A stretch of 64,000 nt of DNA. Source: an uncultured Clostridia bacterium. GTDB taxonomy: Bacteria; Bacillota; Clostridia; Christensenellales; Borkfalkiaceae. This document shows, piece by piece, positions 14,424 through 28,906 of this stretch (its first letter is position 1; the number at the start of each line of letters is the position of its first letter). A program made the translations under genes and the position numbers. The stretch is from the NCBI GenBank assembly GCA_944341075.1, contig CALVLV010000005.1:27751-91750 (forward strand), read 5' to 3'. The notes beneath the pieces are model-generated. The model saw nothing but the letters and a program-made list of their open reading frames with translations, had not been told where the DNA came from and ran no database searches.

Positions 14424-14452
14424 TTGACTAAAGACGGTGAGTGTTGTATAAT
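14424..14452 (+). promoter_or_regulatory. Promoter of argG
   Basis: TTGACT, 17 bases, TATAAT. The start site would be near 14459, so the first in-frame ATG at 14441 is not usable. The leader (14460-14503) contains a small hairpin aaggca/tgcctt. Confidence 0.85.
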
Positions 14453-14503
14453 TTTCACGATAAGGCACGAATGCCTTTAAAAAGTGAAATTCGGATGGTT
14501 TTT

Positions 14504-15724
14504 ATGGAAAAGAAGATAAAAAAAGTTGTGCTTGCCTACTCGGGCGGCCTTGATACATCAATAATCATACCCTGGCTGAAGGAGAACTACGACAACTGCG
14601 AAGTAATCGCCGTTTCCGGCGACGTGGGGCAACAGTCTGAGCTTGACGGGCTTGAGGAAAAGGCCCTCAAGACGGGCGCATCCAAACTTTATATAGAGGA
14701 TCTCCGCAAAGAGTTCATTGAAGATTACATATACCCCACCATGAAGGCAGGCGCCGTTTACGAGGGCAAATATCTTCTCGGAACGTCCTTTGCCCGCCCC
14801 GTTATCGCTAAACGGATAGTTGAGATAGCAAAAAAGGAAGGTGCGGACGCCATCTGCCACGGCTGCACGGGTAAGGGCAACGATCAGGTACGTTTTGAGC
14901 TGGCAATAAAGGCGTTTGCGCCCGATATGCCCATAATCGCCCCCTGGCGCATATGGAATATAAAGAGCCGCGACGAGGAGATAGACTATGCCGAGGCGCA
15001 CAACGTGCCCCTCAAGATAAACAGGGAGACAAACTATTCCAAGGATAAGAATCTGTGGCACCTTTCGCACGAAGGGCTTGACCTTGAGGATCCCGCCAAT
15101 GAACCTCAGTACGACAAGATACTCGAGCTTGGCGTTTCCCCCTGGAAGGCACCCGATAAGAGCGCTTACATAACCATTCATTTTGAAAAAGGCGTTCCCA
15201 CGGCAATCGACGGCGAGGCTATGGACAGCGTTTCCATAATAGAAAAGCTCAACAAGGTCGGCGGCGAAAACGGCGTCGGGATAATAGATATGGTCGAAAA
15301 CCGCCTTGTAGGCATGAAGAGCCGCGGCGTATACGAGACCCCCGGCGGCACGATACTCTATGCCGCGCATGAGATACTTGAATCCATCTGCCTTGACAAG
15401 GCAACGGCACACTACAAGCAGCTTATAGCCATAAAGTATGGTGAAATGGTTTATGACGGCCAGTGGTTTACGCCCCTCAGGGAGGCGTTCGACGCGTTTG
15501 TGGATAAGACGCAGGAGACGGTGACGGGCGATGTAAAGCTCCGCATCTACAAAGGCAATGTCATGCCCGCCGGCGTAACTTCGCCAAATTCGCTTTACAG
15601 CGAAGATATTGCAACATTCGGCGAGGATCATTGCTACGATCAGACAGATTCTGCGGGCTTTATCAATCTGTTCGGACTGCCCATAAAGATCAAGGCGCTT
15701 CTCTATCAGAAAAAGCTTAGGTAG
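14504..15724 (+). CDS. argG: Argininosuccinate synthase
   Basis: Joins citrulline and aspartate with ATP to argininosuccinate. It has 406 residues. The N-terminal PP-loop is [40 protein letters not shown] and [10 protein letters not shown] are the conserved substrate-binding blocks. Start at ATG 14504, supported by the promoter position; ATG 14495 is an alternative. First gene of the arg/car cluster, which is led by ARG boxes, so arginine repression is expected. argH, the next step, is not in the window. Confidence 0.97.
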
Positions 15725-15769
15725 TGTTTCCACCGCATTGCGGCGGTTCGGGAGAATATTGTCTTTTGT

Positions 15770-15796
15770 ACAAAGCGGCGCTTTATGCCGCTTTGT
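15770..15796 (+). other. Strong hairpin between argG and argC
   Basis: Perfect ten-base stem acaaagcggc / gccgctttgt with a seven-base loop and no T tract. It may stabilise the argG message 3' end or tune argC expression; function is inferred only from position. Confidence 0.5.
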
Positions 15797-15883
15797 GCTA
15801 TGTTATCGGAGCTTGTATTATACAGGTTCTTTGACGGAAGGTGCGGCAACGCGCAACTTTTCCGCATAAAAAGTGAAGCTGAA

Positions 15884-16819
15884 ATGAAGTACAATGTTTT
15901 TATAGACGGGCGCGAAGGGACTACCGGCCTGCAGATATTCGAAAGACTGGAAAAGCGCCCCGACATCAATATTATTGCCCTGCCGGAGGAGCAGCGTAAA
16001 GATGTTTCCGCGCGAAGGCAATGTATAAATTCGTCCGACATAACCTTTCTCTGTCTGCCTGACGATGCGGCCAGACAGTCCGTTTCGCTCATTGAGAGCG
16101 ACAGGGTGAGGGTGATAGACGCGTCCACCGCGCACAGAACTGCCGAGGGCTGGGTCTACGGCCTGCCCGAAATATCGCCCGAAAGGAAGGGCCAGATAGA
16201 AAAGGCAAAGCGTGTTGCAAATCCGGGCTGCCATGCGACGGGATTTATAACCCTTGTGGCTCCGCTTGTAAAAGGCGGGATACTTGGCGCAGATTATCCG
16301 CTGACCGCGCACTCGGTTACGGGCTATTCAGGCGGTGGCAAAAAGATGATTGCCGAATACGAGGCAAAGGAGAGGAGTGCGGCCCTGTTTTCGCCAAGAC
16401 AATACGGCCTTACGCTTGCGCATAAACACATCCCCGAGATGGTAAAGGAGTGCGGCCTTGCCCATGCCCCGATTTTTAACCCGATCGTAGCCGACTTTTA
16501 TTGCGGCATGTGTGTAACTGTTCCGCTTTATCGCAAGCTTCTGTTGAAGAAATACGGCGCAGATGACATACGTGAATATTTTACAGAGTACTATGCGTCG
16601 CATAATTTTATAAAAGTTGCCCAAAAAGATGAAATTCCTTCCTATTTGCCCGCAAATGAACTTGCAGGCACAAATATGCTGAAGATATATGTTACGGGCA
16701 ACGACGACATGATAAATATGTGCAGCGTGTTCGATAATCTCGGCAAGGGCGCTTCGGGCGCGGCCGTTCAGAACATGAATATAATGCTTGGGTTAGACGA
16801 AACTTTTTCGCTCATCTGA
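15884..16819 (+). CDS. argC: N-acetyl-gamma-glutamyl-phosphate reductase, type 2
   Basis: NADPH-dependent reduction of N-acetylglutamyl phosphate to the semialdehyde. With 311 residues and the short N-terminal VFIDGREGTTGLQI nucleotide loop it belongs to the compact type 2 group (about 310 residues) and not to the 340-residue type 1 common in Bacillus. The active-site Cys is in NPGCHATGF near residue 117, and GYSGGGKKMI is the conserved segment after it. Start taken at ATG 15884; upstream in-frame starts overlap the hairpin region. No strong ribosome site is visible. Confidence 0.95.
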   Translation: MKYNVFIDGREGTTGLQIFERLEKRPDINIIALPEEQRKDVSARRQCINSSDITFLCLPDDAARQSVSLIESDRVRVIDASTAHRTAEGWVYGLPEISPERKGQIEKAKRVANPGCHATGFITLVAPLVKGGILGADYPLTAHSVTGYSGGGKKMIAEYEAKERSAALFSPRQYGLTLAHKHIPEMVKECGLAHAPIFNPIVADFYCGMCVTVPLYRKLLLKKYGADDIREYFTEYYASHNFIKVAQKDEIPSYLPANELAGTNMLKIYVTGNDDMINMCSVFDNLGKGASGAAVQNMNIMLGLDETFSLI

Positions 16820-16924
16820 ATGGTTTTAGCTTGACAATCGGACATTGCAGGTTTGCTTTAAGCTTTTTGTGGCGCTGCAATAACGGCGGAGCTGAAGGGC
16901 GGAACGGAAGAGGTTGTTTATACT

Positions 16925-16977
16925 TTTAATATTTTATATTAAAGTCGATTGACGGCGCGTTTTTTTTGCGTTATAAT
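16925..16977 (+). promoter_or_regulatory. Internal promoter of argJ with adjacent AT-rich palindrome
   Basis: TTGACG (16949), 17 bases, TATAAT (16972-16977). Just upstream at 16925-16943 is a palindrome TTTAATAT-TTT-ATATTAAA, which resembles an operator in placement but does not fit the G/C positions of an ARG box. A second transcript for argJ onward is therefore likely. Confidence 0.75.
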
Positions 16978-17028
16978 CTATAAAAAGCAACGCGCAAGAA
17001 GTGTTTTTGACGGATAATTTTTGGATGT

Positions 17029-18249
17029 ATGAAATCTTTGCGTGAAATTAAAGGCGGTGTCTGCGCGCCCCTCGGGTTCAGGGCGGGCGGCATACATTGC
17101 GGCATAAGGAAAAATAAAGATAAAAAGGACTTTGCGCTTATTTTAAGCGACGTGCCATGTGCGGCGGCGGGCGTGTTTACTTCTAACCTTGTAAAGGGTG
17201 CGCCTGTGGTTGTAGCCGCGCGCAACCTGCAGAACGGTAAGGCGCAGGCCATTATCTGTAACAGCGGCAATGCAAATACCTGCAATAAAGACGGGATAGC
17301 GGTCGCCGAAAAAATGTGCGGACTTGCGGCTGATATTGCAGGCATACCGGCGGACGACGTAATAGTTGCCTCTACGGGCGTGATCGGCGTACCGCTTGAT
17401 ATCGCCCCAATGGAGGGCGCCATAGGCGATTTATATGCCTCCCTCGGCGACAACAGCGACGCGGCCGCCGAAGCCATAATGACTACGGACACCGTTCCAA
17501 AATCGGTTGCGGTGGAGTTTGAAGTCGGCGGCAAGGTCTGCCGCATGGGCGCCATAGCCAAGGGCGTGGGCATGATCTGCCCCAATATGGCAACAACGCT
17601 GATATTTATCACCACCGACGTTAAAATTTCTTCCGCAATGCTTAAAAAGGCGCTTTCGGAAGACGTAAAAAAATCGTTCAACATGGTGAGCATAGACGGC
17701 GACCAGTCGACTAACGATACCTGTTGCATACTTGCCAACGGCCTTGCGGGGAACGACTGCATAGAGGCGGACGGCGCAGATTTTACCGCCCTTAAAAGGG
17801 CGCTCGGCTATTGCACGGTAAAGCTTTCGCGCATGATCGCAAAGGACGGCGAGGGCGCAACAAAGCTTATAGAGTGCAACGTGAGTGGCGCAAGGTCTGT
17901 AAAGATGGCGCGCGGCGTGGCGAGGGCTGTGATAAAGTCTTCGCTGGTAAAGGCCGCCATGTTCGGGGCCGACGCCAATTGGGGCAGGGTGCTCTGCGCC
18001 ATAGGGTACAGCGGCGAAGCCGTCGATCCCGACAAGATAGACGTAAGTTTCCGTTCTGCGGCAGGCGACCTGCCCGTATGCAAGGGCGGCAGCGGAGTGC
18101 CGTTCGACGAAGACTACGCAAAGAGCGTGCTTTCGTGCGACGAGGTGCAGATAAATATAAACCTCAACCTCGGGCGCAACAAGGCGTCGGCATGGGGGTG
18201 CGACCTCACTTACGACTACGTGAAAATAAACGGCGACTACCGCACCTGA
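17029..18249 (+). CDS. argJ: Bifunctional glutamate N-acetyltransferase / ornithine acetyltransferase
   Basis: Moves the acetyl group from N-acetylornithine to glutamate, so the pathway runs as a cycle. The precursor of 406 residues cleaves itself into two chains before a threonine. That site is seen as KGVGMICPNMAT, with Thr at residue 189. The C-terminal GANWGRVLCAIGYSG-type block is also present. Whether it can also use acetyl-CoA (bifunctional form) is not decided by the sequence I can read; the absence of argA nearby makes it plausible. The ribosome site is weak. It has its own promoter. Confidence 0.96.
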   Translation: MKSLREIKGGVCAPLGFRAGGIHCGIRKNKDKKDFALILSDVPCAAAGVFTSNLVKGAPVVVAARNLQNGKAQAIICNSGNANTCNKDGIAVAEKMCGLAADIAGIPADDVIVASTGVIGVPLDIAPMEGAIGDLYASLGDNSDAAAEAIMTTDTVPKSVAVEFEVGGKVCRMGAIAKGVGMICPNMATTLIFITTDVKISSAMLKKALSEDVKKSFNMVSIDGDQSTNDTCCILANGLAGNDCIEADGADFTALKRALGYCTVKLSRMIAKDGEGATKLIECNVSGARSVKMARGVARAVIKSSLVKAAMFGADANWGRVLCAIGYSGEAVDPDKIDVSFRSAAGDLPVCKGGSGVPFDEDYAKSVLSCDEVQININLNLGRNKASAWGCDLTYDYVKINGDYRT

Positions 18250-18344
18250 CCGCAGGCCATAGTTCTTAGCGGGCCTTCGGGAACATGCTTTGGGTGCGGG
18301 TTGCACAATATACAGATTTTTTATACCTGATCGGAGACATTTTG

Positions 18345-19193
18345 ATGGATAAACAGGAACAGGCCGAGTTTCTGATAGAGGCTCTGCCGTACATAAAAAA
18401 ATACTATAACAAGATAATAGTCATAAAGTACGGCGGCAGCGCGATGACGGACGAAAAGCTTAAGTCTTCCGTCATGAACGACGTCTCCGTTCTCAGCGCT
18501 CTGGGCATAAAAGTCGTGCTTGTGCACGGCGGCGGCCCTGAAATTTCGGATATCTCGAAAAAGATGGGTATTACGCCAAAGTTTATAAACGGGCTGCGCT
18601 ACACTGACGCCGAAACGGCGGAGATCGCGCGCATGGCGCTTGCGGGCAAGGTCAACAAAACGCTTGTAGACTTGCTTGAATCGGCAGATTGTAAAGCTAT
18701 AGGGCTGTGCGGCGAAGACGGACATATGCTTAAGTGCGAAATGATATCCGAAGAGCTCGGTTATGTGGGCAGGATAATCAGCGTAGATCCGCGCGTCATC
18801 AAGGATGTGCTCAGCCTTGGCTACGTGCCCGTGATATCGCCGATAGGCTTCGACGAGGCGGGCAATATCTATAACGTAAACGCCGATACGGCGGCCGCAG
18901 CCATTGCGGGGGCGATCGGCGCGGAGAGCCTTATTCTCATGACCGACATAAAGGGGCTTATGGAGAACAAGGACGACGAAAACAGCCTTATAAAAAAGGT
19001 ATATGTTTCGGACATTTCCGCCCTGATAAAGCAGGGCATAATTTCCGGGGGCATGATACCCAAAATAGATTGCTGCAAGGAAGCCATCCGCCGCGGGGTA
19101 AACAAGGTGTTTATCACCGACGGAAGGGTTTACCATTCCATTTTGGTGGAAATTTTGTCTGAAGAGGGCAGCGGCACCATGTTTTACAGTTGA
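18345..19193 (+). CDS. argB: Acetylglutamate kinase
   Basis: Phosphorylates N-acetylglutamate, usually the arginine-sensitive step. It has 282 residues. The amino-acid-kinase motifs IKYGGSAM, VLVHGGGPEIS and VNADTAAAAIA are present, with GGMIPKIDCC near the end. Start at ATG 18345 with a cggaga ribosome site; the longer frame from 18285 is not needed. The N-terminal helix before KYGGS (EALPYIKKYYNK) resembles the extra helix of arginine-inhibited hexameric kinases, so feedback control is likely but inferred. Confidence 0.97.
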   Translation: MDKQEQAEFLIEALPYIKKYYNKIIVIKYGGSAMTDEKLKSSVMNDVSVLSALGIKVVLVHGGGPEISDISKKMGITPKFINGLRYTDAETAEIARMALAGKVNKTLVDLLESADCKAIGLCGEDGHMLKCEMISEELGYVGRIISVDPRVIKDVLSLGYVPVISPIGFDEAGNIYNVNADTAAAAIAGAIGAESLILMTDIKGLMENKDDENSLIKKVYVSDISALIKQGIISGGMIPKIDCCKEAIRRGVNKVFITDGRVYHSILVEILSEEGSGTMFYS

Positions 19194-19226
19194 CTGATTT
19201 ATTGCGTTAAATCAGTCTTTATTTTA
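19193..19226 (+). terminator. AT-rich hairpin between argB and argD
   Basis: Nine-base stem actgattta / taaatcagt starting on the last bases of argB, followed by CTTTATTTTAG. Likely a leaky terminator inside the arg cluster. Confidence 0.55.
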
Positions 19227-19255
19227 GTAAGGGCAACTTTCACGGGAGCGAAATT

Positions 19256-20422
19256 ATGGACGGAAAATATATAATCGACGAAGATAAGCAGTTCATTGCC
19301 GGCACCTATGCGCGCTTTCCGGTAGCCTTTAAAGAGGGAAAGGGCTGCAGGCTTTACGACTACGACGGCAAGGAATATATCGACTGCGGCAGCGGCATTG
19401 CCGTAAACATTTTCGGCGTGAACGACGAAGAGTGGAAGAGCGCGGTAATTGCTCAACTGAACAACATTCAGCATACAAGCAATCTTTATTATACCGAGCC
19501 GCAGGCAAGGCTTGCGCGCATGCTCTGCGAAAAGACGGGTGCAGGCAAAGTTTTCTTTGGAAACAGCGGTGCCGAGGCCAACGAATGCGCCATAAAGGCA
19601 GCCAGAAAATACGGCGAGCTGCACGGCGGAGAGCATAAAAAACAGATAATAACGTTGAAAGATTCTTTCCACGGCAGAACTATTGCCACGCTTGCCGCAA
19701 CGGGACAGGAGTCCTTTCATAAGTATTACGGCCCTTTTCCCGAAGGGTTCGTGTATGCAGAGCCGACTATAGAGGGCGTGGAGAGCTGCTTTAATGAAAA
19801 CACCTGCGCTGTGATGATAGAGGTCATCCAGGGCGAGAGCGGCGTGAACGTCCTCGGAGAAGATTTTGTAAAGGGTGTGGAAGAGCTGTGCCGCAGGCTC
19901 GGGGCGCTTTTTATCTGCGACGAAGTGCAGACGGGCAACGGCAGGACGGGCCACCTGTATGCATACCAGGCATACGGTGTAAAGCCCGACATAGTGACTA
20001 CCGCAAAGGGACTGGGCGGCGGGCTACCCATAGGCGCCTGCATGCTCTTCGGCGATGTCGCCGGCGTCTTCGGCGCGGGCGACCACGGTTCCACCTTCGG
20101 CGGCAATCCCGTCGTGTGCGCGGGCGCGTGCAGCATACTTTCGCGCATAGACGACAAGCTGCTCGCTTCCGTAAGGGAAAAGGGCAAATATTTTGTCGAA
20201 CGGCTTAAAAAGATAAACGGTGTAAAATCGGTGAGCGGAATGGGGCTTATGATAGGCATAGATACTTCAAAGCCTGCTTCGCTTGTGGCAAAAGAGTGTC
20301 TTGATAAGGGGCTTTTAGTGCTGACGGCACATTCAAGGGTGCGCCTGCTGCCGCCGCTCACTATAGGCAAAGAGGATATCGACTTTGCTTTAAAAATTTT
20401 GAACGAGGTGATAAGTCAATGA
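19256..20422 (+). CDS. argD: Acetylornithine aminotransferase
   Basis: PLP enzyme that converts N-acetylglutamate semialdehyde to N-acetylornithine. It has 388 residues of the class III aminotransferase fold: DCGSGIAVNIFG, the FGNSGAEANECAIKAARKY cofactor segment, FICDEVQTGNGRTG, and the PLP lysine in TTAKGLGGG near residue 250. Ribosome site ggga before ATG 19256. It overlaps argF by 4 bases, so the two are translated together. The same enzyme often also serves lysine biosynthesis (succinyl-DAP), which may matter given the DapF-like domain downstream. Confidence 0.96.
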   Translation: MDGKYIIDEDKQFIAGTYARFPVAFKEGKGCRLYDYDGKEYIDCGSGIAVNIFGVNDEEWKSAVIAQLNNIQHTSNLYYTEPQARLARMLCEKTGAGKVFFGNSGAEANECAIKAARKYGELHGGEHKKQIITLKDSFHGRTIATLAATGQESFHKYYGPFPEGFVYAEPTIEGVESCFNENTCAVMIEVIQGESGVNVLGEDFVKGVEELCRRLGALFICDEVQTGNGRTGHLYAYQAYGVKPDIVTTAKGLGGGLPIGACMLFGDVAGVFGAGDHGSTFGGNPVVCAGACSILSRIDDKLLASVREKGKYFVERLKKINGVKSVSGMGLMIGIDTSKPASLVAKECLDKGLLVLTAHSRVRLLPPLTIGKEDIDFALKILNEVISQ

Positions 20423-21321
20423 AACATCTGCTTAAACTTGGCGATCTTACAAGGGAAGACATACTTTCTATACTCAATCTTGCCGACCAGCTCAAATTCG
20501 AAAGGATGAACGGCATACAGAAGGAGTATCTCAAGGGCAAAAAGCTCGGCATGATATTCCAGAAGTCGTCCACCCGAACAAGGGTGTCCTTCGAGGCGGG
20601 CATATATGAACTTGGCGGCACGGGCATGTTCCTTTCCAGCAACGACCTGCAGATAGGCAGGGGCGAACCGATAAAGGACACCGCGCGCGTGCTCTCGCGC
20701 TATCTGGACGGAATAATGATACGCACGTTCGCCCAGCAGGAAGTGGAAGACCTTGCAAAGTACGGCACGATACCCGTTATAAACGGGCTCACTGACTACT
20801 GCCACCCCTGCCAGGTGCTTGCCGACCTTATGACCATAAGGGAGTACAAGGGCACTTTCAAGGGGCTTAAAATGGCGTTCATCGGCGACGGCAACAATAT
20901 GGCGAACAGCCTTATAGTCGGTGCGGTAAAGACGGGCATGAACTTCACGGTGGCCTGCCCCGAAGGGTATGAACCGGACGCCGAACTTGTAAAGTGGGGC
21001 ACCGAGAGCGGGCTTTTGAAGATAACTTCAGACGTCGACGAGGCCATAGAGGGCGCAGACGTGCTGTATACCGATGTATGGGCGTCTATGGGCCAGGAGG
21101 GCGAAAAGAAGGAGCGTGAGCGCGTTTTCAAGGGTTTCCAGATAAACGAAAAGAACATAAAGGCTGCCAAGGAAGATGTTATGGTCATGCACTGCCTGCC
21201 CGCGCACCGCGGCGAAGAGATCACCGACGGGGTGTTCGAAGCGCACGCCAAAGAGATATTTGACGAAGCCGAAAACAGGCTGCACGCGCAGAAGGCGGTC
21301 ATGGTAAAGCTAATGCGCTGA
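20419..21321 (+). CDS. argF: Ornithine carbamoyltransferase
   Basis: Makes citrulline from ornithine and carbamoyl phosphate. It has 300 residues, with the carbamoyl-phosphate motif SSTRTR near residue 53, HPCQ in CHPCQVLADL, and the ornithine-binding HCLPAHRGEE. SxxR and DxxxSM (DVWASMG) are in place. Overlaps argD by 4 bases. The following two genes supply its carbamoyl phosphate. Confidence 0.97.
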   Translation: MKHLLKLGDLTREDILSILNLADQLKFERMNGIQKEYLKGKKLGMIFQKSSTRTRVSFEAGIYELGGTGMFLSSNDLQIGRGEPIKDTARVLSRYLDGIMIRTFAQQEVEDLAKYGTIPVINGLTDYCHPCQVLADLMTIREYKGTFKGLKMAFIGDGNNMANSLIVGAVKTGMNFTVACPEGYEPDAELVKWGTESGLLKITSDVDEAIEGADVLYTDVWASMGQEGEKKERERVFKGFQINEKNIKAAKEDVMVMHCLPAHRGEEITDGVFEAHAKEIFDEAENRLHAQKAVMVKLMR

Positions 21322-21358
21322 ATAAATGGCGGGAAGAAAAAATTTTACCTTAAAATTA

Positions 21359-21388
21359 TTGCCTTGATTCCGCGCTTTGTGGTAAAAT
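21359..21388 (+). promoter_or_regulatory. Candidate promoter of carA
   Basis: TTGCCT, 18 bases, TAAAAT, followed by a GC-rich inverted repeat (gcgcgcatatacgcgc region, about 21408-21427) in the 100-base leader. The repeat may be regulatory; no ARG box is seen here. Confidence 0.5.
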
Positions 21389-21495
21389 GCCGCAGGGCCG
21401 CCGTGAGCGCGCATATACGCGCCGCGGCGTGAAAAGTTACTTTTGACATAAATTTTTATTGCATCCAGAAAACATTACCTCAGAAGGAAGGATAG

Positions 21496-22569
21496 ATGAA
21501 AAACAGCAAAGTTTATTTAACGCTTGCAAACGGCAGACAATTTACGGGCTATTCCTTTGGCGCCGAAAAAGAAGTTGTGGGGGAGCTTGTGTTCACCACC
21601 GGCATGACCGGTTACATTGAAACGCTCACCGACCCCAGCTACTACGGGCAGATAGTTACGCAGACCTTTCCGCTCATAGGCAACTACGGTATGATAGAGG
21701 CCGACATGGAGAGCAAAAAGCCTTGGGTGACGGCCTATATAGTAAGGGAAAAGTGCGATAAGCCCTCCAACTTCAGGTGCGGGGGAACCATAGACGAGTT
21801 CCTCAAAAAGAACGGAATTCCCGGGATCTACGGCATAGACACGCGCGAGCTCACAAAAATAGTCAGAGAGGCGGGCGTGATGAATGCCGCGATAACCAGA
21901 AGGCCGCTCAAAGACCTTGCCGAGGTAAACGCCTACAGCATAAAAGATGCGGTAAAGTCGGTAACATGCGGCGAGGTGGAGTACCTCGGCGACAAAAACG
22001 GCCTTAAGGTAGCTGTATGGGACTTTGGTGCAAAGCGCAACATTGCGCGCGAGCTTGCAAAGCGCGGGTGCTACTGCATGGTAGTGCCTTCGTACTATAC
22101 TGCCGAACAGATACTTGCGCTTGAGCCCAAGGGGCTTATGCTTACCAACGGCCCCGGCGATCCTTCCGAAAATTCAGAACTTATTGCCAACATACGCAAG
22201 CTTGTCGGCAAGCTGCCCATCTTCGGCATCTGCCTCGGACATCAGCTGTTTGCCCTTGCCATGGGAGGAAAGACAAAGAAGATGAAGTACGGGCACAGGG
22301 GATCTAACCAGCCTGTCAAGAACCTTGATACAGGCAGGGTGTATATATCCAGCCAGAACCACGGCTACGAAGTTATTTCGTCGAGCGTGGAGGGCGGCAA
22401 GCTCAGCTTTATCAACGCAAACGACGGCACCTGCGAAGGGTTCGAATATCCCGAACTCAACGCTTATACGGTGCAGTTCCATCCCGAGGCATGCGGCGGG
22501 CCTATGGATTGCTCGTTCCTGTTCGATAAATTCATACTCAACATGAAGGAGGGCAGATACCATGCCTAA
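21496..22569 (+). CDS. carA: Carbamoyl-phosphate synthase small subunit
   Basis: Glutaminase subunit that feeds ammonia to CarB. It has 357 residues. The N-terminal CPSase domain includes FTTGMTGYIETLTDPSYYGQ, and the class I amidotransferase domain has the nucleophile Cys246 in GICLGHQ and the His/Glu pair in FHPEACGGP. Strong ribosome site (aaggaagg). The last 8 bases overlap carB. A single car locus here next to argF suggests arginine control; a pyrimidine-linked copy could exist elsewhere. Confidence 0.97.
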   Translation: MKNSKVYLTLANGRQFTGYSFGAEKEVVGELVFTTGMTGYIETLTDPSYYGQIVTQTFPLIGNYGMIEADMESKKPWVTAYIVREKCDKPSNFRCGGTIDEFLKKNGIPGIYGIDTRELTKIVREAGVMNAAITRRPLKDLAEVNAYSIKDAVKSVTCGEVEYLGDKNGLKVAVWDFGAKRNIARELAKRGCYCMVVPSYYTAEQILALEPKGLMLTNGPGDPSENSELIANIRKLVGKLPIFGICLGHQLFALAMGGKTKKMKYGHRGSNQPVKNLDTGRVYISSQNHGYEVISSSVEGGKLSFINANDGTCEGFEYPELNAYTVQFHPEACGGPMDCSFLFDKFILNMKEGRYHA

Positions 22570-25500
22570 GAGAGAGGACATAAAAAAGGTATTAGTTATA
22601 GGTTCGGGCCCCATAGTCATCGGCCAGGCAGCCGAGTTCGACTACGCCGGCGCGCAGGCGTGCCGCGTTCTCAAGGACGCCGGATTGGACGTAGTGCTCT
22701 GCAACTCCAACCCCGCTACGATAATGACCGACAAGGCGCTTGCAGATGAGATCTATCTGGAGCCCCTCACCGTCGATACTCTTAAACGAATAATCATAAA
22801 GGAGCGCCCCGACAGCCTGCTTGCCTCGCTCGGCGGGCAGACGGGCCTTACCCTCGGCTGTCAGCTGGCAAAAGAGGGCTTTCTCGATGAGTGGGGCGTA
22901 AAGCTCATAGGCGTAAATTTAAGCGCGATAGACAGGGCGGAGGACAGGGAACTCTTCAAAGAGACCATGCAGAAGATAAACCAGCCCGTCGTTCCCTCAG
23001 ACATAGCTTACACCGTGGAAGAGTGCCTTGAAGTGGCAAAAAAGATAGGCGGCTACCCTGTGATAGTGCGCCCCGCGTATACGCTCGGCGGCGCGGGTGG
23101 CGGCGTTGCCCATGACGAGGAAGAGCTTAAAATAATCGCCCATAACGGCCTGATGCTCTCCCCCATAACGCAGGTGCTCATAGAAAAGTACATCGGCGGG
23201 TGGAAGGAGATAGAGTTCGAAGTTCTGCGCGACGGTGCGGGCAACGTGCTCACCGTCTGCTCCATGGAGAATTTCGACCCCGTAGGCATACACACGGGCG
23301 ACTCCATAGTAATCGCCCCCGCAGTCACTCTCTCCGACAAGGAGTATCAGATGCTGCGTACCGCGTCGCTCGACATAATAACCGAGCTCGGCATAGAGGG
23401 CGGCTGCAACTGCCAGTTTGCGCTCAATCCTGATTCCTTCGAATATTCTGTAATAGAGGTAAACCCCAGGGTTTCGCGCTCCTCGGCGCTCGCTTCAAAG
23501 GCCACCGGCTACCCCATAGCCAAAGTCGCCACCAAGATAGCCCTCGGCTATACCCTCGACGAAATAAAGAACGACGTTACGGGCAAAACGTATGCCTGCT
23601 TCGAGCCTACGCTCGACTATGTTGTGGTAAAGCTGCCCAAGTGGCCCTTCGATAAGTTCCTGTATGCAAAGCGCACGCTGGGCACAAGGATGAAGGCCAC
23701 CGGCGAAGTGATGGCCATAGGCACAAGTTTTGAAATGGCCATCATGAAGGCCGTGCGCGGCGCAGAAATTTCCCTCGGCACGCTCAACATGCCCAAGATG
23801 ACGGAGCTCTCCGACGAGGAGATACACGCAAAACTGCACGAACTGACCGATGAAAGGCTTTTCGTGGTGTTCAGCGCCATAAAGCGCGGCATAAGCATAG
23901 ACGAAATTCACAATATAACAAAGATAGACAAGTGGTTCCTTGAAAAGTTAAAGAACCTTGCCGACTTCGAGGCGGAAATTGCAGGAAAGCCCATGACCCG
24001 CACCCAGTACATGGCGGGCAAAAAGATGGGCTACCCCGATAAAGAGCTGGAAAAGCTTTCCGGCAACAAGCTTCCCATGCACAGGGACGCCGTATTCAAG
24101 ATGGTAGATACCTGCGGCGCGGAGTTTGCCGCGCAGACGCCCTATTTCTACTCCACATACGACGAGCTTGACCACGACGAGGCAAAGCCCTTTGTAAAGC
24201 GCAGCAAAAAGCGCAGGATAATAGTTATCGGCTCGGGCCCCATAAGGATAGGTCAGGGCATCGAGTTCGACTATTCGTCCGTTCACTGCGTGTGGACGCT
24301 TAAGGAGCTCGGCTACGAAGTTATAATAATAAACAACAACCCCGAAACGGTCTCTACCGACTTCGACACGGCGGACAGGCTGTACTTCGAGTCGCTCACG
24401 CCCGAGGATGTGCAGAGTGTGATAGACGTGGAAAAGCCCTATGGCGTTGTAATAACCTTCGGCGGTCAGACGGCAATAAAGCTGTGCAGCTATCTGGATA
24501 AAAAGGGAATACGCATACTCGGCACTCCTGCCGACAGTGTTGACCTTGCAGAGGACAGGGAGAGGTTCGACGAGCTTTTGGAACAGTTCTCCATAGCCCG
24601 CCCCAAGGGTCTCACCGTAATGACCAAAGAGGAGGCTATCGCCGCCGCCGAAAAACTCGGCTACCCGGTGCTTCTTCGCCCCTCGTACGTCATCGGCGGC
24701 CAGAATATGACCATTGCCTTCACCCAGAACGACATTGAAAGGTACATGGATGTAATCCTCGCCCAGAAGATAGAAAACCCCGTGCTGTGCGACAAGTACC
24801 TCATGGGCACCGAACTTGAAGTGGACGCCATATCCGACGGCGTGGACGTGCTCATCCCCGGCATAATGCAGCATATAGAGCGCGCGGGCGTTCACAGCGG
24901 CGACTCCATTGCCGTATATCCCCCCTATAACCTGAGCGATTCCATGCTCAAAAAGGTGGTAGACATCTCAATAGAGCTTGCGCTTTCGCTCAAGACAAAG
25001 GGACTTATAAACATACAGTACCTCATTTACCAGAACGAGCTCTATGTTATAGAGGTCAATCCCAGGGCATCGCGCACCATACCTTACATTTCAAAGGTGA
25101 CTGGCGTGCCCATGGTGGAACTTGCCACAAAGATACTTGTGGGGGCAAAGCTGAAAAGGCTCGGCTACGGAACGGGGCTGTATCCCAGCTCGCCGTACGT
25201 GGCAGTAAAGGTGCCTGTGTTCTCGTTTGAAAAACTCAACGACGTAAACTCGCAGCTCGGCCCCGAGATGAAGTCGACCGGCGAGGTGCTCGGCATAGGC
25301 AAGACTATAGAGGAGGCGCTGTTCAAAGGGCTTGTTTCGGCGGGATTCAACATGAAGCATCCCACCAAACAGCATCCTTCGGGCATCTACTTTACCGTAA
25401 ACGACCAGGACAAGTACGAGATAGTAAATATCGTCAAAAAATTTGCCGATCTCGGTCTGACCTTCTATGCTACAAAGGGCACGGCAAACGTTATCCGCAG

Positions 25501-26617
25501 TCTGGGCATAGAATGCACCGAGGTTGCAAGGCTTTCCACCAACGACGAGATATTCAAGCTGATGGATGAAGGCAAGATAGACTACGTTGTGTATACCGGC
25601 AAGACGGACATGGAGTCTATCACCAACTACATCTCGCTCCATCATCACGCCATACTGCTCGGCATCACCGTGCTCACTTCGCTTGACACGACCAATGCGC
25701 TTGCAGACTGCATCGCGGGAAGGTACACCCAGTTCAATACCGAACTCGTAGATATAAACCACCTGCGCAAGCAAAAACTCAAGCTCAGTTTCTGCAAGAT
25801 GCACAGCTGCGGCAACGATTATATATTCTTCAACAATTTCGATAATAAGATAACCTGCCCCGAATCGCTTGCCATAAACTTTTCAGACAGGCACTACGGC
25901 ATAGGCAGCGACGGCATAGTAATGATAGAAAAGTCTGACGTGGCCGACTGCAAGATGCGCGTATTCAACCGCGACGGCAGCGAGGCAGGCCTTGCTGCCA
26001 ACCCCTTGAGGTGTGTGGCAAAGTATGTGTTCGATAAGCGGATAGTCAATGCCGACAAGATAACGGTTGAAACGTGCAGCGGAGTAAAGACGCTTGAGGT
26101 GGTTTCGTTCAACGGCGTTGCAAGCTCGGTATCGGTAAACCTTGGCGGTGCAGGCTTTGCTCCCGACGCCGTTCCCGTAAATTCACAGACGGAAATAGTG
26201 GGCAAAATGCTTACTTTCGGCGGAAAGGAATACCTTGCCTCGGCAGTGAATGTTGGCAATTCGCATTGCGTTGTGTTCTGCGATAAAGTGGACGACGTAG
26301 ATATGGAGGCTCTCGGCCAGGCAGTCATAGCCTCGGGCATGTTCCCTTCGCTGTCATACGTGGAGTGTGCGAGGATAGTAAACGACCTTACGCTTAAAGT
26401 GCGCGTGTGGGACAAGGTAAACGGCGAAACCATGGCGTGCGGCACGGCTGCCGCTGCGGCAGCCGCCTCTGCCATAAAGATGGGTAGCTGCCTTGCCGAT
26501 AAGGTGATAACCGTAAAGTTGCGCGGCGGCGACCTGTTTGTAAAGTGCCTTGAAAACGGCGATCTTATTCTCGACGGCAGCGTAAAGCAGTCGTATGAAG
26601 GTGTAATAGAGATATAA
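22562..26617 (+). CDS. carB: Carbamoyl-phosphate synthase large subunit fused to a DapF-like domain
   Basis: Residues 1 to about 1070 are a complete CarB: two ATP-grasp halves (GSGPIVIGQAAEFDYAG and GSGPIRIGQGIEFDYSS start them), an oligomerisation region, and a C-terminal MGS-like regulatory domain. With no stop, a diaminopimelate-epimerase-like domain follows from about residue 1075 to 1351, beginning with KMHSCGNDYIFFNN. It keeps GIGSDGIVMIE and the second catalytic Cys (Cys1293 in ACGT). The first catalytic Cys, expected in MCGNG, is Ala1145 in GLAANPLRC. The NVEF motif reads YVEC (Tyr1266) and the WERG motif reads WDKV (Asp1284, Lys1285). CarB activity is secure; normal epimerase activity is doubtful. 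The fusion is one open frame with no sign of a sequencing indel. The stop overlaps the next gene (TAATG). Confidence 0.92.
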   Translation: MPKREDIKKVLVIGSGPIVIGQAAEFDYAGAQACRVLKDAGLDVVLCNSNPATIMTDKALADEIYLEPLTVDTLKRIIIKERPDSLLASLGGQTGLTLGCQLAKEGFLDEWGVKLIGVNLSAIDRAEDRELFKETMQKINQPVVPSDIAYTVEECLEVAKKIGGYPVIVRPAYTLGGAGGGVAHDEEELKIIAHNGLMLSPITQVLIEKYIGGWKEIEFEVLRDGAGNVLTVCSMENFDPVGIHTGDSIVIAPAVTLSDKEYQMLRTASLDIITELGIEGGCNCQFALNPDSFEYSVIEVNPRVSRSSALASKATGYPIAKVATKIALGYTLDEIKNDVTGKTYACFEPTLDYVVVKLPKWPFDKFLYAKRTLGTRMKATGEVMAIGTSFEMAIMKAVRGAEISLGTLNMPKMTELSDEEIHAKLHELTDERLFVVFSAIKRGISIDEIHNITKIDKWFLEKLKNLADFEAEIAGKPMTRTQYMAGKKMGYPDKELEKLSGNKLPMHRDAVFKMVDTCGAEFAAQTPYFYSTYDELDHDEAKPFVKRSKKRRIIVIGSGPIRIGQGIEFDYSSVHCVWTLKELGYEVIIINNNPETVSTDFDTADRLYFESLTPEDVQSVIDVEKPYGVVITFGGQTAIKLCSYLDKKGIRILGTPADSVDLAEDRERFDELLEQFSIARPKGLTVMTKEEAIAAAEKLGYPVLLRPSYVIGGQNMTIAFTQNDIERYMDVILAQKIENPVLCDKYLMGTELEVDAISDGVDVLIPGIMQHIERAGVHSGDSIAVYPPYNLSDSMLKKVVDISIELALSLKTKGLINIQYLIYQNELYVIEVNPRASRTIPYISKVTGVPMVELATKILVGAKLKRLGYGTGLYPSSPYVAVKVPVFSFEKLNDVNSQLGPEMKSTGEVLGIGKTIEEALFKGLVSAGFNMKHPTKQHPSGIYFTVNDQDKYEIVNIVKKFADLGLTFYATKGTANVIRSLGIECTEVARLSTNDEIFKLMDEGKIDYVVYTGKTDMESITNYISLHHHAILLGITVLTSLDTTNALADCIAGRYTQFNTELVDINHLRKQKLKLSFCKMHSCGNDYIFFNNFDNKITCPESLAINFSDRHYGIGSDGIVMIEKSDVADCKMRVFNRDGSEAGLAANPLRCVAKYVFDKRIVNADKITVETCSGVKTLEVVSFNGVASSVSVNLGGAGFAPDAVPVNSQTEIVGKMLTFGGKEYLASAVNVGNSHCVVFCDKVDDVDMEALGQAVIASGMFPSLSYVECARIVNDLTLKVRVWDKVNGETMACGTAAAAAAASAIKMGSCLADKVITVKLRGGDLFVKCLENGDLILDGSVKQSYEGVIEI

Positions 26618-27747
26618 TGATTTATTTTGACAATGCGGCGACCACCCGCCCCGAGCGGGCGGCCTTAGAGGCCGCGAACATATACCTTGAAGAGCAATTT
26701 TATAATCCTTCCGCGTTATACGCGGAAGGATATAATTTGCACCGCAAACTTGAGGGGGCGAGGCGTTCGCTCGTATCGCATATCGCCGATCCCGACGAGT
26801 TCGGCATTATAATTACGTCGTGCGGAACTGAGGCGGACAATCAGGCGATATTCTGCGGAGGAAGGCGGGGCAATATTGTAACCACTATGGGAGAGCATGC
26901 CGCCGTATATGCCGCCGCACAAGAGGCGGGAAGAAGGGGCATTGAGGTGCGCTTTGCAAACCTGAACTCCGATGGCAGCGTAGACGTCGACCACCTTTTA
27001 TCGCTCACAGACGATAAAACTTCGCTTGTTTCGGTCATGCACGTAAATAACGAGACGGGCGCCATAAACGATATAAACTCCATTTCTGCCAGAGTCAAGG
27101 AAAAAAATCCGCGTACGCTCTTTCATTCAGACGGCGTACAGGCGTACGGCAAAATTCCGTTTACCTTAGGCAAAAATATAGATATGTATTCTGTCAGCGC
27201 GCACAAAATAGGCGGGCTAAAAGGCACGGGCGCGCTGTTAAAGCGCAAAAAACTTGTGCTTCAGCCCTTTATCTGGGGCGGCGGGCAGGAGGCAGGCTTG
27301 AGGAGCGGCACGGAAAACGTGTTCGGCATAAACGTGTTTGCCGCGGCGGCCGATATTCGTTATTCGGGCGGCGTTGAAGGCAGCTTTGACAAAGTTCGTG
27401 CCGTGCAGGCAAGGCTGTGGGAGCTTTTGGATAAAGATCTTTTTATAAGGATCTCCCCCGAGTGCGGTTCGCCGTACATTCTCACGGTTGGGGCAAAGGG
27501 TGTGCGCGGCGAAACGATATTGCACATGTGTGACGACGAGGGGCTTGTCATCGGCACCGGTTCAGCTTGTTCGTCTAATGCGGCAAAGCGGTATTCTCGC
27601 GTAATGCAGGCATGCGGGCTGAGGGCCGACCTTTTAGACGGCGTGCTCAGGCTGAGCTTCAACCCGCACAATACCTTACAGGAAGCCGAAGAGGCGGCAG
27701 GCATATTAAATAAGGTCGTACGCGCAGACAGCGATATGATGAAGTAA
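26617..27747 (+). CDS. Cysteine desulfurase (NifS/IscS family)
   Basis: PLP enzyme that removes sulfur from cysteine and holds it as a persulfide. It has 376 residues. The PLP lysine is Lys197 in SAHKIGG, and the catalytic Cys318 is in GSACSSN. YFDNAATT opens the protein. The short catalytic loop fits the NifS/IscS group. It overlaps carB by one base and lies 4 bases before thiI, so its sulfur most likely goes to ThiI, like the NifZ-ThiI pair of Bacillus. It could also serve Fe-S assembly; no scaffold gene is adjacent. Confidence 0.93.
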   Translation: MIYFDNAATTRPERAALEAANIYLEEQFYNPSALYAEGYNLHRKLEGARRSLVSHIADPDEFGIIITSCGTEADNQAIFCGGRRGNIVTTMGEHAAVYAAAQEAGRRGIEVRFANLNSDGSVDVDHLLSLTDDKTSLVSVMHVNNETGAINDINSISARVKEKNPRTLFHSDGVQAYGKIPFTLGKNIDMYSVSAHKIGGLKGTGALLKRKKLVLQPFIWGGGQEAGLRSGTENVFGINVFAAAADIRYSGGVEGSFDKVRAVQARLWELLDKDLFIRISPECGSPYILTVGAKGVRGETILHMCDDEGLVIGTGSACSSNAAKRYSRVMQACGLRADLLDGVLRLSFNPHNTLQEAEEAAGILNKVVRADSDMMK

Positions 27748-27751
27748 AATT

Positions 27752-28906
27752 ATGGAAAAAGTTGTTATAGTCCGCTATGCGGAAATTCATTTAAAGGGCA
27801 AGAACCGCGGCTATTTTGAACGCGCCCTTGCCGCCAATATGGAGAAATCGTTAAAGGGCATACGCCACGAAATAAGAAGGCGCAGCGGCAGATATCTTGT
27901 GGAAAATTTTGAGGAATCTGCGGCAGATACAATAGTAAAGCGTCTTTCAAAGGTGTTCGGCGTGCACTCGCTCAGCGTAGGGTATAAAGTTCCCTCCGAT
28001 ATAGACGAAATATATGCTGCCGCAAAACTTGTGTGCGACGATGGCGGCACTTTTAAAGTGGAAACGCACCGCGCGGATAAAAAGTTTTATTTAAATTCGC
28101 CGCAGATAAGCGCACAGATAGGCGGAAGGCTGCTCGACGGCAACAAAAGTCTCAAAGTCGACGTTCATGAACCCGACTTTGTTATAAATATAGACGTGCG
28201 TGAAGACGGCACGGCGCTTATATTCAATAAATTTATAAAGTGTGCAGACGGCATGCCTGTGGGCACTGCAGGGCGCGGGTTGTTGCTTCTTTCCGGCGGT
28301 ATAGACAGCCCCGTTGCCGGACATATGATAGCTAAGCGCGGCATGAAGATAGATTGCCTGCACTTCCACAGCTACCCGTACACCAATATGCAGGCAAGGC
28401 AGAAGGTTTTAGACCTTGCCGAAATACTTTCGCAGTATACGTGCGGCATTAAGGTCACTATAATTTCTGTAAAGCACATTCAGGAAGAGATACACAAAAA
28501 CTGTAACGGCGCCTATATGGTTACGCTTTTGCGCCGCTTTATGATGCGCATTGCCGAAAGGCTGGCCTTAAGCGACGGCGACCAGTGCATAATAACGGGT
28601 GAAAGCCTGGGGCAGGTTGCCAGCCAGACGATAGAGGGCATGACTTCTTCCAACAGTGTCGTGGAAAAACTGCCCGTTCTGCGCCCGCTGTGCGGCTTTG
28701 ACAAGAACGAGATAATCGAGCGCAGCCGCGATATAGGCACTTACGATATATCAATAAGGCCGTACGAGGACTGCTGCACTGTATTTTTGCCTGACTACCC
28801 GATAATCAAGCCAAAACTTGCCGACGTGCTTGCCGAGGAGAGCAAACTCGATGTGGAGGGGCTTATAAAAGAGGCCTTTGCATCAATTGAAGTTAAGGAG
28901 TTCTGA
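27752..28906 (+). CDS. thiI: tRNA 4-thiouridine synthase ThiI
   Basis: Adenylates uridine 8 of tRNA and replaces its oxygen with sulfur. It has 384 residues: ferredoxin-like and THUMP domains first, then a PP-loop ATPase domain with LLSGGIDSPVAG near residue 181. RPYEDCCTVFLP holds the conserved cysteine of the reaction. The C-terminal rhodanese domain of the E. coli enzyme is missing, as is usual in Firmicutes, so sulfur must be delivered by the desulfurase encoded just upstream. Co-transcribed with that gene (4-base gap). Confidence 0.95.
   Translation: MEKVVIVRYAEIHLKGKNRGYFERALAANMEKSLKGIRHEIRRRSGRYLVENFEESAADTIVKRLSKVFGVHSLSVGYKVPSDIDEIYAAAKLVCDDGGTFKVETHRADKKFYLNSPQISAQIGGRLLDGNKSLKVDVHEPDFVINIDVREDGTALIFNKFIKCADGMPVGTAGRGLLLLSGGIDSPVAGHMIAKRGMKIDCLHFHSYPYTNMQARQKVLDLAEILSQYTCGIKVTIISVKHIQEEIHKNCNGAYMVTLLRRFMMRIAERLALSDGDQCIITGESLGQVASQTIEGMTSSNSVVEKLPVLRPLCGFDKNEIIERSRDIGTYDISIRPYEDCCTVFLPDYPIIKPKLADVLAEESKLDVEGLIKEAFASIEVKEF

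Follow-up and report, generated by a model that had tools for sequence, protein, structure and literature searches.

A carbamoyl-phosphate synthase large subunit fused to a predicted catalytically dead DapF-type domain in Candidatus Coproplasma and its relatives

Diaminopimelate (DAP) epimerase, DapF, depends on two catalytic cysteines and on further residues whose roles in substrate recognition are described in the available parts of two papers (PMC5296763, PMC12039745). In C. glutamicum DapF, the substitutions C83A, C221A, N194A and R213A each remove nearly all activity, according to the available text of PMC5296763. A DapF fold can also have a regulatory role that needs no epimerase activity: the E. 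coli protein still binds and stimulates RppH when both its cysteines are replaced by alanine, as stated in the accessible part of PMC4227774. There DapF is a separate working enzyme, whereas in the locus described here the DapF-type domain is fused, predicted to be dead, and has as its partner CarB, the large subunit of carbamoyl-phosphate synthase (CPSase). E. coli CarB comprises 1073 residues, and its Lys993 is required for UMP binding (available text of PMC6245113).

The window, which is the whole 64,000-nucleotide stretch of Candidatus Coproplasma DNA analysed, encodes a protein about 280 residues longer than E. coli CarB (Table 1). The original prediction that CarB continues in frame into a DapF-like domain was borne out by one open frame with two NCBIfam matches, TIGR01369 (CarB) over residues 2-1050 with 1396 bits against a cut-off of 1027, and TIGR00652 (DapF) with 202 bits against 114.65. 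The start proposed there, 25770, lies in the CarB/DapF linker but is not a codon start of the fusion frame; the first residue of the DapF match is 1076 (base 25787). A structure model of the isolated domain (pLDDT 86.5) has the DapF fold, and its top Foldseek match is 2otn, the B. anthracis DapF (34% identity, TM 0.87); trans-3-hydroxyproline dehydratase and PhzF are also among the fold matches. For residues 555-1351, an AlphaFold2 model with 16 similar sequences as input reached a mean pLDDT of only 44.3, too poor to provide a basis for contacts between CarB and the domain. The source genome is a draft of 44 contigs in which the fusion is the only CarB found. The search for another intact dapF, suggested along with the prediction, revealed an intact stand-alone DapF on a separate contig.

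Table 1. Coordinates of the fusion gene, its domains and marker residues, and the neighbouring genes in the window
Feature	Position	Strand	Basis or remark
carB-dapF' fusion gene	22562..26617	+	single open frame, 1351 aa
CarB part, residues 1-1050	22562..25711	+	TIGR01369 match and E. coli CarB comparison
MGS-like allosteric domain, residues 953-1039	25418..25678	+	lies in CarB part
DapF-type domain, residues 1076-1349, predicted catalytically dead	25787..26608	+	TIGR00652 match, residues, model
Ala1145 in place of the first catalytic Cys (H. influenzae Cys73)	25994..25996	+	residue alignment
Tyr1266 in place of recognition-site Asn190	26357..26359	+	Tyr or Phe in 30/30 genus members
Asp1284-Lys1285 in place of Glu208-Arg209	26411..26416	+	residue alignment
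Cys1293, second catalytic Cys, retained	26438..26440	+	present in 30/30 genus members
argG, argC, argJ, argB, argD, argF, carA	14441..22569	+	upstream of fusion
NifS-type cysteine desulfurase, thiI	26617..28906	+	directly downstream of fusion

The window domain shares with DapF (TIGR00652, PF01678) the fold, the length and most motifs. It differs in the replacement of the first cysteine, Asn190, Glu208 and Arg209, in its fusion to CarB, and in not being the only DapF of the cell. The motifs and substitutions named in the original prediction were all located at the residues given: GNDY at 1084, GIGSDG at 1113, DGSEA at 1138, GLAANPLRC at 1143 with Ala1145, Tyr1266 within YVECA, Asp1284-Lys1285 within WDKV (1283) and Cys1293 within ACGT. 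Its statement that DapF needs both cysteines agrees with the near inactivity of C83A and C221A in the available text of PMC5296763, and the N194 and R213 of the same enzyme correspond to Tyr1266 and Lys1285. The domain belongs to DapF by sequence and fold but lacks the cysteine pair, the first cysteine being present in 0 of 30 genus members. The recognition set of Asn64, Asn157, Asn190, Glu208 and Arg209 is incomplete (Asn190 to Tyr, Glu208 to Asp and Arg209 to Lys in the window), and none of the 30 keeps all five. Judged on these residues, the fused window domain is not an epimerase. Besides, window Ser1082 (25805-25807) replaces a glycine two residues before GND that is 97% conserved in intact DapFs. 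All 30 genus members have Ser here, and 54 of the 79 other dead domains have Ser or Ala, which makes the change a second mark of the dead state.

The CarB part shares with its family the full-length TIGR01369 match, the compared active-site residues and a carA gene directly upstream. Fifteen distinct positions, which we take to form the ATP site of E. coli CarB, are all identical in the aligned window protein. In the MGS domain, Lys954, Thr974 and Thr977 are kept, and E. coli Lys993, Asn1015 and Thr1017 are replaced by Arg, Tyr and Gly; apart from Lys993, these residues are presumed to have a role in the site. The window does not possess the nucleotide effector site as it occurs in E. coli. 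Six aligned intact fused CarBs have Ser at both 1015 and 1017 and retain both lysines. Lys993 is kept in all six of them versus two of seven arginine-operon CarBs besides that of the window (L127, L131).

The search for other long CarBs, also proposed at the outset, showed that full-length fusions recur in the genus, the order, the class and beyond. They have no internal stop in at least 44 of 53 sampled Candidatus Coproplasma genomes, the window included, among the matches listed; G104 and G288 span the junction in part, and for the remaining seven no fusion appears among the matches listed. In the family (301 sampled genomes), at least about 135 full-length fusions are among the matches listed, three of which carry internal stops. 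In the order, fusions turn up repeatedly among 396 sampled genomes. Outside the order but still within the class, 53 genomes have a fusion and one more gives a partial match (391 sampled in all); of 299 genomes sampled outside the class, 13 carry one. It is an old fusion and widely distributed.

In genomes from several further genera of the family, CarB is unfused and about 1060-1100 residues long. Since relatives such as G564 have no DapF domain on CarB at all, CarB is workable without it. In one genus of family f4 (g79), the CarBs of L132-L135 are 1064-1076 aa long and 66-67% identical to the window protein over residues 1 to about 1071. No DapF match was found in the stretch fetched for these loci; G376 and G588 of the same genus retain the fusion, and so the domain can be lost whole. 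In the distant loci L147 (3814-7911), L145 (4001-7984), L146 (4046-8044) and L148 (3807-7896), a separate dapF with its two cysteines intact comes directly after carB. The two genes of L145-L147 share a frame and are separated by a single stop, which in L147 is followed by a stretch resembling a ribosome-binding site. This arrangement of L145-L148 may be how the pre-fusion state looked.

The state of the cysteines was compared with the presence of a stand-alone DapF, judged by hand, in 159 fused genomes, of which 76 have both cysteines and 83 have lost one or both. No stand-alone DapF was found in 70 of the 76, and 62 of the 83 have one; because the genomes share ancestry, the weight of all these counts is reduced. 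Within the order (106 genomes), 48 fused domains are intact, 45 of them with no stand-alone DapF found and three with one, and 58 are cysteine-lost, 49 with a stand-alone DapF and nine with none found (Fisher 3e-17). For the class outside the order (53 genomes) the prediction was fixed beforehand: 25 intact domains occur without and three with a stand-alone DapF, and 13 cysteine-lost domains with one and 12 with none found (Fisher p 0.002). The stand-alone DapFs, tabulated in the order set only, keep both cysteines in 52 of 52 cases. One genus, g80 of family f6, holds both states: G377 and G597 are intact with no other DapF found, G573, G556, G565, G589 and G459 have lost a cysteine and possess a stand-alone DapF, and G605 has lost a cysteine with no stand-alone DapF found. 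Cysteine loss is thus associated with having a stand-alone DapF. This is a correlation, from which we infer the cause.

These sets had been defined as follows. Of 114 genomes searched in the order, five were left out for want of a fused domain (G564, G393, G651, G469, G537), two for having adjacent unfused genes (G005, G057) and one where a contig end cuts the gene (G637). From the class set, G684 was dropped because its match was partial, and G704 and G923 because a single stop separates the two parts. G482, with a fragment of a stand-alone DapF at a contig end, was scored as having none.

Of the 21 cysteine-lost genomes in which no stand-alone DapF was found, 14 encode meso-DAP dehydrogenase, an enzyme that bypasses DapF. 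The same enzyme is encoded by eight of 15 intact genomes without a stand-alone DapF (p 0.50) and in all by 16 of the 31 other genomes tested (p 0.39), including also six of 11 cysteine-lost genomes with a stand-alone DapF (one a fragment match) and two of five intact ones with it. It was rejected as the reason for the 21 exceptions, being about as frequent in the other genomes tested; it might permit some of the losses without explaining them statistically. The seven exceptions lacking it are G482, G474, G632, G758, G788, G1023 and G1001. The completeness of G758 and G788 is 65% each and that of G1023 88%, and a dapF gene can be hidden in draft genomes. G1001 is 99% complete, and neither a stand-alone DapF nor meso-DAP dehydrogenase was found in it; its fused domain (L370) keeps Cys73 and has lost Cys217 and most recognition residues.

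On a tree of the 159 fused domains, calculated with the active-site columns removed, the cysteine state changes at least 11 times. The tree-based paired test had six supported pairs only and was underpowered and not significant (median p 0.5). Another tree, comprising 129 rows and including stand-alone DapFs, groups its 67 fused domains into a single clade, within which the main dead lineage branches from among intact domains. It requires two changes between fused and stand-alone, and two stand-alone DapFs fall within the fused clade. Both trees were built quickly and rooted at the midpoint, and many of their branches are weak. Their topology suggests that there was probably one fusion event, with the intact state first and the dead state later. 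Intact fusions such as those of G305, G331 and G718 have the domain order and the single fused clade in common with the window, and differ from it in possessing both cysteines and the recognition residues and in having no arginine genes upstream.

The gene order in the window is argG-argC-argJ-argB-argD-argF-carA-carB/dapF', followed by the desulfurase gene and thiI. Among fused loci with enough flank, 19 of 31 dead ones and 0 of 23 intact ones have arginine genes immediately upstream of carA or carB (p 1e-6). The window is the sole Candidatus Coproplasma locus in this tally; L036 and L049, which are also in arginine operons, are uncounted. G736 was added as non-arginine, and G717, G700, G695, G351, G328, G360 and G482 were excluded for short flanks or contig ends. 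In the 19 arginine loci, argD was seen in 14, argJ, argB and argF together in one, and argF alone in four, where it encodes ornithine carbamoyltransferase by family models. The other 12 dead fused loci are outside arginine operons.

The dN/dS of the domain in the window's genus is 0.063-0.107 versus 0.023-0.032 for CarB, about three times as high, over the closest non-identical pairs listed; four further pairs were identical genomes, and the ratios are rough, the domain dS being near or above 1. This shows that the domain is under purifying selection in the genus, and together with the dead active site this dN/dS, well below 1, marks the domain as a pseudoenzyme retained under selection. Of the 83 cysteine-lost domains, 67 lost the first cysteine only (to Ala in 37, Gly in 17 and Ser in 13), three the second only and 13 both. 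In 74 of the 79 dead domains from outside the window's genus the set of five recognition residues, which reads the far end of DAP, is complete. Across the 79, its columns are retained at 96% and other conserved columns at 90% (p 0.16); in the 18 arginine-operon dead domains besides the window the figures are 100% and 92% (p 0.025). Outside the genus, then, the pocket has decayed no faster than the rest of the dead domains, a weak sign of binding, but it is not clearly better conserved either.

In the genus (30 domains) the same columns are retained at 50% versus 81% (p 0.02). Asn190 is replaced by Tyr in 18 and by Phe in 12, and Arg209 by Lys in 24; Ala stands at position 74 in 28 and at 220 in 29. 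Asn11, Asn75, Cys217, Gly218 and Thr219 are kept in all 30. It appears that the carboxylate-holding catalytic sub-site is largely kept and that the recognition sub-site has been remodelled, gaining an aromatic residue and in most cases a lysine. Because of this rebuilding, the ligand of the Candidatus Coproplasma domain, if any, is probably no longer DAP.

The best reading of these data, in which we have reasonable confidence, is that a pseudo-epimerase is kept as an accessory domain of an arginine CPSase; a retired lysine-pathway epimerase is probably now a regulatory or structural part in these gut bacteria. In the ancestor, a working dapF would have been fused behind carB, giving one protein for carbamoyl phosphate and DAP epimerisation. 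This is supported by the one fused clade and its many intact members with no other DapF found, the activity of which we infer from residues. In lineages with a second DapF, the fused copy would have lost its first catalytic cysteine, and one large dead lineage, often in arginine operons, includes the window. The fold and the domain were then held under purifying selection, as shown for the window's genus, and the domain would now be accessory to the arginine CPSase, binding a small amino acid or holding the complex and so tuning CarB. The purifying selection and the placement in an arginine operon are consistent with the earlier suggestion of a sensor or scaffold linked to arginine supply. Ligand sensing by the fused domain is plausible, although we would not quite expect it. 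The more specific proposal of an allosteric sensor that replaces nucleotide control in the arginine-type CPSase, responding to DAP (or lysine) at first and retuned in Candidatus Coproplasma through Asn190-to-Tyr/Phe and Arg209-to-Lys to, for example, arginine or ornithine, is tentative and rather doubtful.

The domain might instead bind no ligand and persist because the folding, solubility or oligomerisation of CarB came to depend on it, or because its loss is slow. The threefold dN/dS, the absence of the domain from some relatives and the loss of the recognition site in the genus (0/30, retained below other conserved columns) while the rest of the fold stays are what such a structural role would leave. 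The 96% retention in the 79 dead domains outside the genus speaks against it, as does the uniformity of the pocket changes in the genus (190, 74, 220, Cys217), which is not random decay but which shared ancestry also produces. This explanation is possible, with a chance of a little under one in three by our reckoning. An improbable one is that the domain is a new enzyme that uses a single cysteine to act on another amino acid, by elimination, dehydration or one-sided proton exchange. The selective loss of the first cysteine in most dead domains, the invariance of Cys217 in the genus and the other reactions run by related folds (trans-3-hydroxyproline dehydratase, PhzF) agree with it. On the other side, the C83A DapF is nearly inactive as an epimerase (available text of PMC5296763), the Cys217 loop also holds the carboxylate, so that structure alone may preserve this residue, and the window neighbours (arginine, desulfurase and thiI genes) give no hint of a new amino-acid pathway.

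That the window domain is a working DAP epimerase is very improbable despite a score above the DapF model cut-off: it lacks the first cysteine, Asn190 and Arg209, whose individual replacement by alanine nearly abolishes the activity of C. glutamicum DapF (PMC5296763, available text), and an intact DapF is encoded elsewhere in the genome. An active second DapF was rejected on these residues. The joining of two genes by an assembly error or a frameshift is conceivable in a draft of 44 contigs. Since at least 44 of the 53 genomes sampled in the genus, and genomes of many families, carry the same open fusion, this explanation has practically no probability, and it was ruled out by recurrence across genomes.

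With a pseudo-epimerase accessory to CarB as the preferred reading, the fusions amount to a repeated natural test, in many bacteria, of the passage from a fused enzyme to a pseudoenzyme: where no other DapF was found the domain is mostly intact, beside a stand-alone DapF it has mostly lost a cysteine, and both states occur within one genus (g80). This makes it testable whether a retired active site becomes a sensor, in a polypeptide that joins lysine/cell-wall and arginine supply. It also calls for caution, in that a DapF match above the model cut-off need not be an epimerase, as in the window. In the open-access literature, which most subscription journals and all preprints lie outside, no description of a CarB-DapF fusion or of its shift from apparently working to dead was found among the titles and abstract openings listed. 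In the parts available, PMC3478167, PMC8225329 and PMC9695335 are word matches unrelated to the fusion ('Carb' in PMC8225329 being carbenicillin). Both component families are known; the fusion and its repeated shift from apparently working to dead appear undescribed in that literature.

The neighbours of some intact fusions were compared with family models. In L123 (1322-4113, minus strand), purF precedes carA, and pyrG and a gene for LL-DAP aminotransferase follow the fusion, linking it to DAP synthesis. The product of this aminotransferase is the DapF substrate, a context as expected of a working DapF. The intact fusion L129 is accompanied by purA, purF, guaA and pyrG, and two neighbours of L119, also intact, gave no match to the models. 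The single-contig genome G332 encodes two CarBs: one (L131, 4075-8142) is fused to a dead DapF domain within an arginine operon, and the other (L136, 4011-7223) is unfused, with only carA seen beside it.
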